This document shows, in pieces, positions 26,723-34,042 of a stretch of DNA of 34,042 nucleotides. The DNA is from Gammaproteobacteria bacterium (lineage in GTDB: Bacteria > Pseudomonadota > Gammaproteobacteria > UBA9214). A program made the position numbers and the translations under genes. The first letter of the stretch is position 1; each line of letters starts with the position of its first letter. The notes below the pieces were generated by a model, which searched no databases, was not told where the DNA came from, and saw nothing but the letters and a program-made list of their open reading frames with translations. The stretch is from assembly GCA_020344335.1 (NCBI GenBank), contig CP070821.1, forward strand, positions 1,907,425 to 1,941,466, read 5' to 3'.

Positions 26723-27628
26723 ATGAGGAAAGCCATCAATAAAGCTGTGTTTCCCGTCGCCGGCATGGGTACGCGATTTCTTCCGGCAACCAAGGCAAAT
26801 CCAAAGGAAATGCTGCCGATCGTAGACAAGCCGCTGATCCAGTATGCCGCCGAAGAGGCGGTACGCGCGGGCATCAAGGAACTGATCTTTGTGACCAGCA
26901 GCAGCAAGCGGGCCATCGAGGACCATTTCGACAAAAACTACGAGCTGGAAACGGAACTCGAGAAGAAAGGCAAGCATGAGCTGCTCAGGATCGTTCAGGA
27001 AGTGGTACCCCCGGATGTGACCTGTGTGTATGTCCGGCAACCGGAGGCCCTGGGCCTGGGGCACGCAGTATTGTGTGCAGGGCCCGTTGTCGGCGATGAT
27101 CCCTTTGCAGTGATACTCGCAGACGATCTCATTAACTGCAATGGTAATCACGTACTGGGACAGATGATTTCGGTCTTCAACGATCGTGGTTGCAGCATTC
27201 TTGGTGTCGAGGAGGTGCCGCCGGAAGATACCGACAAATACGGCATAGTCGATCCGGAAGAGTCCCATGGACGGATTACCCATGTCAGGAATATCGTGGA
27301 GAAACCGGCACCTGCTGATGCCCGTTCCAACCTCGCCGTGGTCGGACGCTACATCCTTACACCGGCGATCTTCGCTCATCTCGAGAACATCCCGCGGGGT
27401 GCCGGCGGTGAGATCCAGCTGACCGATGCCATCGAGCGTTTGCTGCAGGATGAACAGGTGCTGGCGTATCGCTTTGAAGGCAAACGCTATGACTGCGGCA
27501 ACAAGCTGGGCTACCTCCAGGCCACCGTTGAACTCGCCCTGGAGCACCCGGAGCTGCGCGAAGCGTTTCTGGAATATCTGGAAACCGAGTTCGGCAGTGC
27601 GAAGAAGCTGCGTGCCATCAACGACTGA
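26723..27628 (+). CDS. galU: UTP-glucose-1-phosphate uridylyltransferase
   Basis: A 301-residue GalU, almost the E. coli length (302). The nucleotide-binding signature [20 protein letters not shown] starts at about residue 8, followed by [28 protein letters not shown] at about 135, VEKPAP at about 192 and [15 protein letters not shown] at about 252 are the other conserved blocks. It makes UDP-glucose for glycans and lipopolysaccharide. It is 16 bases after manC, so the pair supplies two activated sugars. The 3' fragment of tRNA-Asn begins 30 bases past its stop, meaning the presumed element was inserted immediately beside it. Confidence 0.98.
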
Positions 27629-27658
27629 CGCTGAACGCCATTCTATATGAAGTGAGAG

Positions 27659-27703
27659 TGGCTCCCCGGGACGGGCTCGAACCGCCGACCTAGTGATTAA
27701 CAG
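27659..27703 (-). pseudogene. 3' fragment of tRNA-Asn(GUU), probable attachment site
   Basis: Read on the minus strand, the sequence starts in the anticodon loop (CTGTTAA, anticodon GTT), and continues with the 3' anticodon stem TCACT, variable loop AGGTC, T-arm GGCGG-TTCGAGC-CCGTC and acceptor strand CCGGGGA-G-CCA. The 5' half is missing: the bases before CTGTTAA (TGCTA) cannot pair with TCACT and no D-arm or TCCCCGG acceptor strand is present. Truncation exactly at the anticodon loop is typical of the displaced half of a tRNA used as attB by a tyrosine recombinase. An intact copy would be expected further right, outside the window. Confidence 0.82.
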
Positions 27704-27736
27704 TAGCAGCGACACTCTGAATTGTGCCCAGAAAGC

Positions 27737-27994
27737 TTAAGAATCGGAAACGCTTTTCTGGCGGCCCTTGTGTTTGCTCTCCTCGACTGAAACAATCCCG
27801 AACCCTCCCGAGCATTCGGCTTCAGAATGTGCGCATTTTTTACTGCGTTTTCGAATGAGCTCAACGAGTTGCACCTTGTGGGCGACCGAGATTCCAGCGA
27901 ACCGACGACACAGCCGCCGCGTGGGGGAGGCGGGTCGCCGGAGGGCCGGAGCAACCTCGCGCCGGGTACGGTGCAGAGCGGGGCATGCGCAAAT
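27737..27994 (-). other. open frame without start, possible gene remnant
   Basis: A minus-strand frame free of stops for 85 codons, between TAA codons at 27995 and 27737, reads in its second half like a protein (HKVQLVELIRKRSKKC and VEESKHKGRQKSVSDS), including a Lys/Arg-rich C-terminus. There is no ATG; a GTG at about the middle would give only some 48 residues. It lies just inside the tRNA-Asn scar. It could be the tail of a decayed element gene or chance. The rest of 27629-28288 shows no other gene; 28010-28250 is AT-rich. Confidence 0.3.
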
Positions 27995-28288
27995 TTAAAT
28001 CAATCCAGCAAGCGCTACGATTTCTGAATGTGAACGCGGCTATTTACAATCTATTCAATCTGGGATGTCATTTGGTTTATGCGAAGTGCTATCGATTACC
28101 TCGATTGCCTGCATTTGCAACCTGGAGATATACGCAGATTTGAAATGACACTTTCGATAGGAATGTTCTGAGATCGAGTCGTTTTAACCACGCAGTACCC
28201 TTTTTCTAATATGGACTTTCGAGAGGCAGGTAACTATCCTGAGTGATATCGCTGGCGAGTTGCCCAGGCAACAGGAAAGACCAGAAGA

Positions 28289-28561
28289 ATGGGGCCAACC
28301 GAAGTCCACATTTCAGGCATGGTCGTGCTGACCCGCCCCGAAAGCCTGCAGGCCGTGAAGGAAGACATTGAACGCCTCCCGGGCGTCGAAGTTCATGGCG
28401 AGTCCGAAACTGGCAAGCTCGTGGTCGTGCTGGAGTCGGATCGACAGACCTACATCACCGATACCATTGAAACAATTAGAAATTTCGAACATGTGCTAAG
28501 CGCAGCGCTTGTTTATCACCAGATCGAGCCGTTAGATTCCCAGGAAACCGACCTATTATGA
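28289..28561 (+). CDS. napD: NapD, chaperone for periplasmic nitrate reductase maturation
   Basis: A 90-residue protein matching NapD in length and layout: [20 protein letters not shown] at residues 6-25, [20 protein letters not shown] in the middle and [15 protein letters not shown] near the end (ferredoxin-like fold). NapD binds the twin-arginine signal of NapA in the cytoplasm and delays export until the molybdenum cofactor is loaded. AGGAAA at 28273-28278 is a ribosome site with a 10-base spacer before the ATG. Its stop overlaps the napA start (ATGA at 28558-28561), so the two are translationally coupled. It is the first gene of the nap operon. Confidence 0.92.
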
Positions 28562-31044
28562 AACTGTCCAGACGCGCGTCCATCAAGGCAAATGCCGCGG
28601 CCGCGGCCGCCGCAGTTGCCGGCATCAGCTTGCCGGTGACGGCTACCAACCTGATAGTCGATCAGCAAAAGACCAAAATCTCCTGGGATAAGGCGCCCTG
28701 CCGATTCTGTGGCACCGGTTGTTCGGTGCTGGTGGGAACCCAGGCCGGTCGCGTGGTCGCAACCCAGGGCGATCCCGAGGCACCGGTCAATCGTGGGCTG
28801 AACTGCATCAAGGGTTATTTCCTCTCCAAGGTCATGTATGGCAGCGATCGCCTGCAATCCCCGATGCTACGCATGAAGGGTGGGCAGTACGACAAGAACG
28901 GCGATTTCGAGCCGGTCTCTTGGGACAAAGCCTTCGACATCATGGCGGAGAAGTGGAAAGCGGCCCTGAAAAAGCGTGGCCCCACCAGTGTCGGCATGTT
29001 TGGCTCGGGGCAGTGGACTGTGATGGAAGGCTACGCGGCAGCCAAAATGATGAAGGCCGGTTTCCGGTCGAACAACATCGACCCCAACGCGCGTCATTGC
29101 ATGGCCTCTGCGGTCGTTGGATTCATGCGCAGTTTCGGTATTGATGAACCCATGGGTTGCTACGATGATTTCGAAAGCGCGGACGCCTTCGTGTTGTGGG
29201 GCTCGAACATGGCGGAAATGCACCCTGTCCTGTGGACACGCCTGACCGACCGCCGCCTAAGCCACCCGCACGTCAAGGTGCACGTCATGTCCACCTATTA
29301 TCATCGCTCTTTCGAGCTGGCCGATAATCGCATGATTTTTACCCCGCAGACCGATTTGATCATCGCCAATTTCATCGCCAACTACATCATCCAGAACGAC
29401 GCGGTGAACTGGGACTTCGTCGACAAGCATACCCATTTCAAACGCGCCACTCCCGATATCGGCTATGGCCTGCGCGATGATGACCCACTACAGCAAAAAG
29501 CCGCCAATCCCAATTCCGGCGAAATGCACGCGATGTCCTTTGACGAATACAAGGAGGCAGTTTCCGACTATACCCTGGAACGGGCGATGGAGGCCTCGGG
29601 CGTCTCCGAGGAAAGCCTGCTGACTCTTGCAAAGGCCTATGCCGATCCCGGCACCAGGGTTATGTCGCTGTGGACCATGGGAGTGAATCAGCACACGCGC
29701 GGCGTGTGGATGAATAGCCTGATTTACAATATCCACCTGCTCACCGGCAAGATATCGCAGCCCGGCAATAGTCCTTTCTCGCTGACCGGTCAGCCTTCCG
29801 CTTGCGGCACAGCACGCGAGGTGGGCACTTTCTCGCATCGCCTGCCCGCCGATATGGTCGTTAAAAACAAGGCGCATCGCGACATCGCGGAAAAGATATG
29901 GAAACTTCCAGAGGGCACGATTCCCGCGAAACCGGGTTTCCATGCCGTGTTACAGAACCGCAAGCTCAATGACGGTGAACTCAATGTCTATTGGGTTATG
30001 TGCAACAACAACATCCAGGCCGCGCCCAACCTGATGGAGGAAGGGCTGCCCGGGTATCGCAATTCAGATAATTTCATCGTGACTTCCGATCCCTACCCAA
30101 CAGTGACCTGCCAGGCATCCGACCTTATTTTGCCAACAGCCATGTGGGTCGAGAAAGAAGGTGCCTACGGCAACGCGGAGCGACGCACCCAGACCTGGCA
30201 TCAGCAGGTCTCGCCACCCGGCGAAGCCAAGTCGGACCTGTGGCAAATCATGGAATTTACCAAGCGCTTCAAAATGGAAGAGGTCTGGACCGAGGAATTG
30301 CTGGCCGCCATGCCCGAGTATAAAGGCAAGACACTGTACGAGGTGATGTTCCGCAATGGCCAGGTTGATCGTTTCCCCGAAGCGGAAGCGCCGGAATTGA
30401 ACGACGAGTCCCACGACCATGGATTTTACGTGCAAAAAGGCTTGTTCGAAGAGTATGCCTCCTTCGGTCGCGGTCACGGCCACGACCTCGCGCCTTACGA
30501 TCGCTATCACCAGGAGCGCGGCCTGCGCTGGCCCGTGGTTGATGGCAAGGAAACCCTGTGGCGCTTTCGCGAAGGATCCGATCCCTACGTCAGGAAAGGC
30601 GCGGGTTTTGAGTTTTACGGTCACAAGGATGGCAAGGCCAACATTATTTTCGCGCCCTATGAAGCGGCGCCGGAAGAGCCGGATTCGGAATACAATCTGT
30701 GGCTCTGTACCGGTCGGGTGCTCGAACATTGGCATTCCGGTTCCATGACGCAACGCGTGCCCGAGCTTCACCGGGCGGTTCCGGATGCCATGTGCTACAT
30801 CCATCCGAACGACGCCAGTAACCGGGGCCTGCGCCGTGCGGACGAAGTAATTATTCGCTCACGCCGTGGTGAGATACGCTGTCGCATCGAAACCCGGGGG
30901 CGTAACAAGCCGCCCGAGGGCCTGGTGTTCGTGCCCTGGTTTGACGCGCGCATCCTGATTAACAAGGTAACGCTGGATGCAACCGATCCCCTGTCCAAGC
31001 AGACCGATTTCAAGAAATGCGCGATCAAGATTATAAAGGCGTGA
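28558..31044 (+). CDS. napA: periplasmic nitrate reductase catalytic subunit NapA
   Basis: An 828-residue NapA, the same length as in E. coli. A twin-arginine signal is at residues 4-10 (SRRASIK) followed by an alanine-rich stretch. The 4Fe-4S cysteines are C48, C51, C55 and C83, with K85 in CIKGYF linking cluster and cofactor. The molybdenum ligand is C181 in [22 protein letters not shown], the [20 protein letters not shown] block and [12 protein letters not shown] are conserved further on. It holds two MGD cofactors and reduces nitrate to nitrite in the periplasm with electrons from NapB. napB overlaps the stop (TGATG). Confidence 0.98.
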
Positions 31045-31556
31045 TGACAATGAACAGCAAGAATAGTGTGAACAGATTCATGGCCGGCCTGCTGATTGTT
31101 GTTGCATGCCTGCTGCTGCCAACGGTACAGGGCCAGCAGGCCGATAGCGGGAGCGGCATGGCCAAGACCGACAACGTGACGAATGGCGGACAGGCTTCGT
31201 TGCGGGGTCTCACCGAGCTCGACGAAACACGTGAGGCCGATTTGTTCAAGCCGGTGCCGCGGGATCGCAGGCCCTACAAAAGCGATTATGTATATCAGCC
31301 GCCACTGATTCCGCACAAGATTCGCGACTATGAATTGTCGGCTAACGCCAACAAGTGCCTGACCTGCCACAGTTTCAAAAATGCGGTGGATTCCGGCGCG
31401 ACAAAGATCAGTGTCACTCACTATGAATCCCGCCAGGGGCAGATACTTTCGGATGTGTCTCCGCGGCGCTACTTCTGCCTGCAGTGCCATGTGGTCCAGA
31501 CCGATACGCGCGAACTGATCAGCAATAACTTTAAACCGGTAGATTCCCTGCAATAG
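31044..31556 (+). CDS. napB: NapB, diheme cytochrome c subunit of nitrate reductase
   Basis: A 170-residue protein from ATG 31044, which overlaps the napA stop; ATG 31050 is an equal alternative. A signal peptide covers about residues 1-30 (FMAGLLIVVACLLLPTVQG). Two c-type heme motifs are CLTCH (105-109) and CLQCH (145-149), with candidate distal histidines H91 and H126. PPLIPHKIRDYE and the final HVVQTDTRELISNNF are NapB-like. NapB passes electrons from NapC to the NapA cluster. Its N-terminal part is somewhat longer than in some family members. Confidence 0.95.
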   Translation: MTMNSKNSVNRFMAGLLIVVACLLLPTVQGQQADSGSGMAKTDNVTNGGQASLRGLTELDETREADLFKPVPRDRRPYKSDYVYQPPLIPHKIRDYELSANANKCLTCHSFKNAVDSGATKISVTHYESRQGQILSDVSPRRYFCLQCHVVQTDTRELISNNFKPVDSLQ

Positions 31557-31579
31557 CAGGTAGACACGGCGCGAACGCA

Positions 31580-32158
31580 ATGAAGCAGCTGTTAATGACG
31601 TTTTGGAGCAGGCTTTCGCGGCCGAGCAAGGCATCCGCGGGGGTATTGCTGGGGCTTGGCTTCGTCGGCGGTATTCTCTTCTGGGGCGCATTTAATACCG
31701 GTATGGAAGCCACCAACACCGAGGCGTTTTGTTCCAGTTGCCATGCGCCCATCGTCGCGGAGATACGCGAAACCATTCACTACTCCAATCGATCGGGGGT
31801 GCGCGCGATCTGCTCCGACTGCCACGTTCCGCACGCCTGGACAGACAAGCTCGTGCGCAAGGTGCAGGCCAGTAAGGAACTGGTTGCCTTTGCCCTCGGA
31901 ACCATCAACACTCCGGAGAAGTTTCGCGCCCGAAGGGGGCACCTGGCCCACCGCGAATGGCAACGCATGAAAAACAACGATTCCCAGGAATGCCGTAACT
32001 GCCATAACTTCGATTTCATGGATTTTTCGGAACAGGGTCGCCGCAGCATTACTCAGCACTCCACGGCGCTGGCCTCCGGCGACAAGACCTGTGTCGACTG
32101 CCACAAGGGGGTCGCCCATCGGTTACCGAATATGAGCGGCGTAGAGGGTTGGCAATAA
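31580..32158 (+). CDS. napC: NapC, tetraheme quinol dehydrogenase
   Basis: A 192-residue NapC/NirT cytochrome. A single N-terminal membrane helix (about 20-40, GVLLGLGFVGGILFWGAFNT) anchors it. Four c-type heme motifs follow: CSSCH (51-55), CSDCH (78-82), CRNCH (138-142) and CVDCH (171-175), ending with KGVAHRLP. It oxidises membrane quinol and reduces NapB. Length is near E. coli NapC (200). No napG or napH for a menaquinol branch is present, so NapC should be the sole quinol entry point. The ribosome site is weak. It is 23 bases from napB and 16 bases from the next small gene. Confidence 0.96.
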   Translation: MKQLLMTFWSRLSRPSKASAGVLLGLGFVGGILFWGAFNTGMEATNTEAFCSSCHAPIVAEIRETIHYSNRSGVRAICSDCHVPHAWTDKLVRKVQASKELVAFALGTINTPEKFRARRGHLAHREWQRMKNNDSQECRNCHNFDFMDFSEQGRRSITQHSTALASGDKTCVDCHKGVAHRLPNMSGVEGWQ

Positions 32159-32174
32159 GCCTGTAACAACAAAT

Positions 32175-32309
32175 ATGAGTACACTCGAGAGCATTTTCTG
32201 GCACGTCCTGGGCTACGCAACCATGCCGTTCATTTTCATCGTCGGCTATATCGGCGTCGCCGCTGCCGCCCTGTGGCTTTTGTCGCTGGGCGTGGACAAG
32301 GATATTTAA
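32175..32309 (+). CDS. 44-residue single-helix membrane protein after napC
   Basis: ATG 32175 to TAA 32307-32309 encodes 44 residues. It begins MSTLESIFWHVLGYATMPF, is hydrophobic from about 11 to 38 and ends in the charged GVDKDI. It sits 16 bases after napC on the same strand. From memory, proteins of similar size, with a start MSTLE-x2-WH-x-LGY-x2-MP, occur downstream of napC in Vibrio and Shewanella and are listed as TIGR02808-type proteins of unknown function; I could not verify this. It is not NapE by obvious motif. A role in holding or tuning the NapC complex is a guess. No clear ribosome site, suggesting translational coupling. Confidence 0.7.
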   Translation: MSTLESIFWHVLGYATMPFIFIVGYIGVAAAALWLLSLGVDKDI

Positions 32310-32777
32310 CCGACCATCCGGGATTGCGCGCCTCCTTTGGGTGAGGTATCCCACCTCTTTGAAGAATTGGCGAATCAGCTGACCAGGATTTCAGTTTTTC
32401 AGAATTTCAGATTTTCACCCGCACAACCGGCACCGGAGGGAGTGGAGGGATGTCGAACGCCTTGAACGGCAGGTTTATGCCCAAACCCGGACTTTTAGGG
32501 TTGGCTAATATAAACCGGTGCTTAACGACAGGAACCGACCCTGAAGAGACATTCGAGCGTGTTTTTGGTACGGCAAAAATCGGGCACAATTCGGACATTA
32601 GAAGCTTAGGGGATGATGGCAAGACGTAGGTTCCTTCGTCACCTTTGGATGGTCCGTTAACGAGTCATGGTAAGGCGTTTATTTTTCTTATACTCAAGGC
32701 GAAGCTGGGGGTGGACGTTGAGCGCATCTGAGACATACCCAGCAGTGCTGCGACCAGATGGCTCAGCGCTGTAGTGC
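32310..32777. other. region between the nap operon and the transporter gene
   Basis: About 470 bases between convergent units. GAGGT (32343-32347) and ACCTC (32353-32357) form a small stem followed by three T residues, a weak candidate nap terminator. A minus-strand frame of 71 codons (32407-32622) ends in PPLPPVPVVRVKI. Its sequence looks familiar as a recurring short hypothetical in other genomes, but I cannot name it and would not call it a gene on this evidence. Nothing else is recognised. Confidence 0.4.
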
Positions 32778-34042
32778 TCAGGCGCTCCGCAGTCGTGTGA
32801 TGCGCGCCAGCCCTATGGCCAGCAGAGGCAGCGTCAGGGTGATCAGCATCGCCGTGACCAGCAGCCAGCCGAGCTCGCTGTAGTCAGCCGCCACCTGGAT
32901 AGCACCGGTGGCGCGATCGGTTACCTCGCGGGTAATCGTATACACTTGGTTGAGGTACTTGGTGCCGAGCTGCGAGGCGGACAGGGCCAGGTTGGTGAAG
33001 GATGCCATCACCGCGAAGAAGGTGGCCTTGAGGTGCGCCGGCGCCGAGTTGGCGATCCAGGCCAGCATGGGGATCATCGCCACTTGGCCCAGCGGGGACT
33101 CCAGCGCGGTGTTCACCAGCGCGATGAAACGCGCATCCACCACGCCGCCGGTGAACGCAGCGGTCCACTCATGCAGGCCGTAGTACATGCCGACCACTGG
33201 CAGGTACAGGATGGTGCTAACAATCGTCAGAAAGACCACCACGAAGGCAATGGAACGCTCCGCCATGAAACGGCGGAACAGGAACATGCCGAACAAAGCC
33301 AGGCTGGCGCCGATCAGCGACAGCACCGAGATGAATTTCTGGTCGAAGGCCAGCTCGTCGATCATCCACCAGGTTTCGCCGGGCCCGGGGCCCGGCATGG
33401 CGCGGTACACGAAGATGATGATGGCGGTACCCACCAGGACCCTGCGTGCCTCGGGCTCCAGCACTTTCACCAAGCGCCGCATCAGAAATAGCACGATCGC
33501 CAACGAGCCGATGAAGATGATCTCCTGGTTGAACGGGATGTCGCTCAGGCCCATCGACACCGTGAACACCACGAACACCAGGCTGCCGCCTAGAATCCAC
33601 CAGTTCGGCGCGGTGCGCTCCAGTTGACCATGTACCATGCCCCATGCATCACTGCTGGCGATCCCGCTGCGTCGCAGCTGGCGTAAGCGGCGCAGCTTCA
33701 GCCAGGCGGCAAGCAAAACACCCAGCACCGACACCACCGGGATCAGCAGCGCCATCTCATAGATGCGGATGTACACCGTCAGCTTGTCGGCCTCGGACAT
33801 GCTGTCCACGTCCGCGAACATGTAGATGTTTAGCAGCGACACCAGCACCCCACCGCCGACCAGCGCAACTCGGCCAAGTGTCTGCATGGTGGTGTGCATC
33901 AGGCGCAGCTGGCCAGCGGGCAGGGCGCGGCCCTTGGCATCCACCCGCGGCACCGCCTCCACAGTCATGGCATCGGCCACCACGTCCTGCACAACGTAAC
34001 CGATCGGCGCCAGCAGAACACTGACCACGAACCAGGCGCCCA
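32778..34042 (-). CDS. MFS transporter of the folate-biopterin (BT1) type, N-terminus outside window
   Basis: A minus-strand frame open to the right edge, with about 421 residues visible and stop at 32778. It begins in mid-protein (GAWFVVSVLLAPIGYVVQDV), so the true start lies beyond the window; the GTG at 34028 is an artefact. VVQDVVADAMTVEAVPR is the signature I associate with the BT1/folate-biopterin branch of the major facilitator superfamily. About ten further hydrophobic segments are visible, e.g. FVVVFLTIVSTILYLPVVGM and LLVTAMLITLTLPLLAIGL. Substrate is unknown; folate or pterin is only the family name. A second acidic-rich cytoplasmic loop separates the two halves. Confidence 0.75.
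   Translation of the reverse strand, partial: GAWFVVSVLLAPIGYVVQDVVADAMTVEAVPRVDAKGRALPAGQLRLMHTTMQTLGRVALVGGGVLVSLLNIYMFADVDSMSEADKLTVYIRIYEMALLIPVVSVLGVLLAAWLKLRRLRQLRRSGIASSDAWGMVHGQLERTAPNWWILGGSLVFVVFTVSMGLSDIPFNQEIIFIGSLAIVLFLMRRLVKVLEPEARRVLVGTAIIIFVYRAMPGPGPGETWWMIDELAFDQKFISVLSLIGASLALFGMFLFRRFMAERSIAFVVVFLTIVSTILYLPVVGMYYGLHEWTAAFTGGVVDARFIALVNTALESPLGQVAMIPMLAWIANSAPAHLKATFFAVMASFTNLALSASQLGTKYLNQVYTITREVTDRATGAIQVAADYSELGWLLVTAMLITLTLPLLAIGLARITRLRSA

Follow-up and report, generated by a model that had tools for sequence, protein, structure and literature searches.

A truncated tRNA-Asn gene and a recurrent element arm between galU and napDABC mark a probable integration boundary in an uncultured gammaproteobacterium

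The window, i.e. the whole stretch of 34,042 nucleotides that was analyzed (contig CP070821.1, positions 1,907,425 to 1,941,466), carries the following features from galU onward:

26723-27628, plus strand: galU, UTP-glucose-1-phosphate uridylyltransferase (NCBIfam TIGR01099, 385.9 bits against a cut-off of 326.8), a conserved flank outside the proposed element
27629-27658, no strand: 30-bp spacer between the galU stop and the tRNA 3' end, delimited by sequence comparison
27659-27704, minus strand: 3' half of tRNA-Asn(GTT), positions 31-76, a putative displaced half of attR type with the anticodon loop as crossover region and the 5' stem absent
27705-27932, minus strand: putative element end arm, "p2", 228 bp, recognized by alignment, shuffle controls and profile matches
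28289-28561, plus strand: napD, chaperone, putative cargo (PF03927, E 1.2e-29)
28558-31044, plus strand: napA, periplasmic nitrate reductase, putative cargo (NCBIfam TIGR01706 and NF010055, at least 1560 bits)
31017-31556, plus strand: napB, putative cargo (PF03892, E 6e-45)
31580-32158, plus strand: napC, putative cargo (PF03264, E 5.8e-70; TIGR02161, 292 bits, just below the cut-off of 310.6)
32778-34028, minus strand: MFS transporter of the BT1/folate-biopterin type, putative cargo, reaching the contig end (PF03092, E 6.7e-11)

By sequence comparison, all 46 bases of the tRNA-Asn half are identical to positions 31-76 of the intact tRNA-Asn of the same genome. A blastn search of the genome with 27640-27730 as query recovered tRNA-Asn(GTT) at C1:217428-217503 (100% over 46 bp, E 1e-17), which according to the blastn and tRNA searches is the only intact tRNA-Asn present. 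This match is far beyond chance. The CTGTTAA loop, the 3' strand of the anticodon stem (TCACT), the T arm and the 3' strand of the acceptor stem with its CCA are preserved, while positions 27-31 are occupied by TGCTA, for which pairing with TCACT is impossible, and the 5' half is missing. No tRNA was called over the window by ARAGORN and Rfam, and a permissive Rfam threshold around the half gave nothing relevant. The initial annotation had described a 3' tRNA-Asn part running from the anticodon loop to CCA, its 5' half gone and its upstream bases unpaired, and had proposed a search for an intact gene with the same 3' end; the description was borne out, and a gene with this 3' end is present at C1:217428-217503. 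Its placement of the half at 27659-27703 was right in location and one base short, the true end being 27704.

The galU flank is ordinary for this group, with 80-90% identity in the congeners and in most further members of the family that have galU. In two genomes of other families (G033 and G039) and one of the same family (G006), the DNA downstream of galU is variable (1.9, 4.4 and 33 kb, respectively) and leads to a convergent tRNA-Asn and then an aspartate-aminotransferase-like gene, with uvrB also located behind the latter two in G039 and G006. The tRNA-Asn site thus appears as a hotspot reused with differing content. The neighbors of the intact tRNA-Asn of the present genome are those found in G006, namely GspH, aminotransferase, uvrB, tRNA-Val and thrS (GspH is a Pfam result; the labels aminotransferase, uvrB and thrS were read from the sequences by the analyst). 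In addition, tRNA-Asn 3'-end remnants facing galU were identified in two other genomes, at a distance from the galU stop of about 40 bp in G004 and 2.1 kb in G007. Based on this gene order and these remnants, the half beside galU sits where, and points the way that, a host half displaced by integration into that tRNA would be expected to.

On its other side the half is abutted by the p2 arm. Over the 228 bp at 27705-27932, 67% of the positions (152 bp) are identical to the sequence adjoining a tRNA-Asn half in another genus (G020), with a local score of 55 against a shuffle maximum of 26 (n=1000). The arms of G011 and G015 are weaker but alignable, the score of G011 being attained by 1 of 1000 shuffles, and the core shared between genomes is the inner 73 bp (27705-27777). 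A profile constructed from five arms was used to search 23 genomes of the order. It gave eight matches, the five training sequences and three new ones (E 3.6e-16, 1.3e-13 and 6.4e-8) located in G019 and G007; the genomes with profile matches include G015, G011, G019, G020 and G007. Both new arms of G007 directly abut 3' halves of tRNA-Met(CAT) which begin at the anticodon loop, and next to the match in G019 comes what remains of a degraded tRNA-like sequence. Since the arm lies at tRNA-Asn and tRNA-Met halves across genomes, p2 is, as judged from these alignments, the end of an element which recurs at two different tRNAs. A junction-pattern scan of the genome collection returned only G020 and G011, both already known, and the same pattern had no match among viral contigs.

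A second shared arm, on the CCA side and near TTTCAAATCTTCGGCTTACG, accompanies the halves of G002, G020 and G015 and the half on contig C, a further contig of the same bin. At this position the window carries CTCTCACTTCATATAG, and the 30-bp spacer resembles neither this arm nor the native galU downstream sequence of the congener G002. The recurrence of p2, together with the lack of the CCA-side arm in the window, places the element on the right. In G002 itself (C126:4211-6978), an intact tRNA-Asn is followed by short cassettes encoding a RIO-domain kinase-like ORF and a small membrane ORF, each cassette ending in a tRNA-Asn 3' end and the same CCA-side arm.

Contig C (6982 bp, C1:914408-921389) contains the second tRNA-Asn half of the genome at C1:916006-916053. 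Here the half joins, at its anticodon loop, a galU 3' end of 105 bp that is 94% identical to the galU of the window (C1:915897-916053), and this galU end continues into native-like galU downstream sequence. Besides the CCA-side arm, contig C carries a SET-domain ORF and, about 500 bp on, a tRNA-Met(CAT)-like half. Contig C may represent the opposite end of the island seen in the window, a sibling strain in which galU received an insertion, or contamination.

The "single 2.6-Mb contig" of this assembly consists of contigs joined by spacers of 100 N; in the stretches fetched, exact 100-N runs occur about every 10 kb. The window is exactly one assembly contig, bounded on either side by such a run (1907325-1907424 and 1941467-1941566), and the contig bearing the intact tRNA-Asn stops 10 bp past the CCA at the spacer C1:217514-217613. 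With so short a flank, this contig would not reveal the integrase that the initial annotation expected beside the intact tRNA. Distances and orientations between contigs are therefore meaningless, long-range gene order is unsafe, and a physical link between nap and the intact tRNA-Asn is beyond what these coordinates can show. The half and the intact gene are on different contigs, and their orientation relative to galU agrees with the gene order of the relatives. Statements made here about the whole genome rest on searches. A tadA gene beside the intact tRNA-Asn was dismissed as a "right flank", its position being an artefact of the spacers. Two tadA-like genes with 81% identity are present in the bin (C1:217584-217955 and C1:732454-732807), one possibly a paralogue or part of a contaminating contig.

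Two rival explanations were weighed against integration. The half could mark a breakpoint of a large inversion between the tRNA-Asn copies, for in concatenated coordinates the intact gene (217k) and the half (1935k) are inverted and one inversion would restore the ancestral order. The chance of this is very slight and the inversion was rejected, as the 100-N spacers expose the coordinates as a concatenation, the window being one contig, and a conserved element arm requires no inversion. A chimeric assembly or strain mixture in this metagenome-assembled genome, by which galU and a nap contig were linked at the 46-bp tRNA repeat, would fit a fragmented bin whose contigs break at this site (that of tRNA-Asn after 10 bp, and that of galU in G001 at galU) and in which a related 105-bp galU end adjoins another tRNA-Asn half at 916k. 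We consider it improbable, because an arm homologous to those at the tRNA-Asn halves of other genomes and lying directly against the break would not be expected of such a join.

The preferred explanation, to which we assign a probability of about 0.8, is that an integrative element entered tRNA-Asn, that 27659-27704 is the galU-side boundary formed by the displaced half, and that the element extends from 27705 and most likely includes napDABC. In this lineage the target would have been a tRNA-Asn gene lying downstream of galU and pointing towards it, with the crossover falling within the anticodon loop. The tRNA would have been rebuilt by the 3'-half copy brought by the element, giving the intact gene which is now on another contig, while the original 3' half of the host would have been pushed to the far end, beside galU. 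The element would begin at 27705 with its conserved end arm, would most likely carry napDABC as its own cargo, and would have been integrated by a tyrosine recombinase that either acted in trans or has been lost since. The half itself, the arm, which is seen again at other tRNA halves, and the order of galU and tRNA-Asn in relatives directly support this account. The integration boundary, the crossover at the anticodon loop and the position of the element on the right, all put forward in the initial annotation, agree with the arm kept at other tRNA halves, with the convergent galU/tRNA-Asn order and with the G020 alignment; its further proposal that nitrate respiration arrived as cargo is retained as likely only.

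That the nap operon was carried by the element which entered tRNA-Asn is graded as no more than likely because the contig stops at 34042, before the far boundary, no integrase gene is nearby and the contigs provide no contiguous link to the intact tRNA-Asn. The napDABC genes are the next genes after the p2 arm. Full-type napA was absent from both congeners, which are drafts of 85-89% completeness, and among the family genomes searched its only other carrier was G010, in which the nap cluster is differently arranged. NapA shows a flat identity, at 68% to G010 and 70% to G030, a genome from another family. By contrast, ThrS and UvrB reach 83-86% to G010, and UvrB and GalU fall to 76% and 66%, respectively, to G030. 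A NapA identity that departs from kinship, against comparison proteins that follow it, suggests horizontal gain. Neither GC nor GC3 of the nap genes is shifted from that of core genes.

The scar and arm could instead be what is left of an older element that decayed within a tandem island, with nap a later, separate acquisition that is merely adjacent; nap could then have entered inside or beyond the older element. Within the family, tandem arrays of tRNA halves occur frequently (G002, G020, G015 and G007, with tRNA-Asn ends in G002, G007 and G020), about 360 bp of non-coding DNA separate the arm from napD, and the composition of nap resembles the core. The arm is however well conserved (E 4.9e-18 against the profile, which includes p2 itself), and the tRNA searches revealed no second tRNA 3' end or further boundary in 27704-34042. 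On balance this sequence of events is possible but unlikely.

No tyrosine recombinase or integrase gene was detected in the window by Pfam, and the Pfam integrase matches of the genome were limited to XerC, XerD and a single fragment beside tRNA-Met (714 kb). Fragments aside, at most two tyrosine recombinase genes were found in each of the four arm-bearing genomes G000 (the genome of the window), G011, G015 and G020; an assignment to XerC and XerD was made for G000 only. On the strength of these low numbers, one may speculate that the shared arm belongs to small family-specific cassettes without an integrase, which insert at the anticodon loop of tRNA-Asn and tRNA-Met and depend for their movement on enzymes supplied in trans, possibly the housekeeping XerC/XerD, an idea that we regard as rather doubtful.

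Displaced tRNA 3' ends were also observed elsewhere. Three tRNA-Cys 3' halves lie within 2.7 kb (C1:1241209, 1242994 and 1243842), each starting from the anticodon loop and with related AT-rich sequence before it; they represent small insertions arranged in tandem. Further 3' copies away from their intact genes were those of tRNA-Pro(GGG), tRNA-Leu(TAA) and tmRNA (C1:1444890, C1:2138440 and C1:2436054), the tRNA-Leu(TAA) copy also sharing at least 30 bp of downstream DNA. G026, which belongs to another family, has one tRNA-Asn 3' half together with several 3' halves resembling tRNA-Lys, spaced 2-5 kb apart (C24:31024-40209), with a PIN-domain-like ORF among the intervening genes.

Integration at a tRNA gene is a well-known mechanism, and the scar is of a well-known type, that of a tRNA-targeted additive genomic island. 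What is new is the element lineage, with its shared arm, its tRNA-Asn and tRNA-Met targets and, in this genome, XerC and XerD as the only integrases; the less ordinary part is an arm common to genera and tRNAs in arrays without visible integrases. The locus points to a specific and testable way in which periplasmic nitrate reduction may have been acquired by an uncultured gammaproteobacterium, and p2 defines an element end for which further genomes of the family can be screened. In the islands found by Islander, a split tRNA is likewise accompanied by a displaced identical 3' fragment (3760 of 3919 islands) and the crossover is centered on the anticodon loop in 2083 of 3919 (PMC4383910); the present element differs from these in that no integrase gene was seen in or near it and its far end is unassembled. 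Additive flexible genomic islands, in which one tRNA is reused by cassettes ending in a tRNA repeat, match the present case in the reuse of a tRNA hotspot with differing content, but an end arm of about 70-230 bp common to genera and to two tRNAs (Asn and Met) is not described in the portions of those reports considered here (PMC7771536, PMC4119200, PMC10872708). Tycheposons have a tRNA at their border, an associated tyrosine recombinase and cargo that is often nitrogen-related (PMC10872708). The present element has neither a detected tycheposon recombinase or hallmark gene nor an assembled far end and is not claimed as a member, while its tRNA border and nitrogen-related putative cargo are the features it shares with them.
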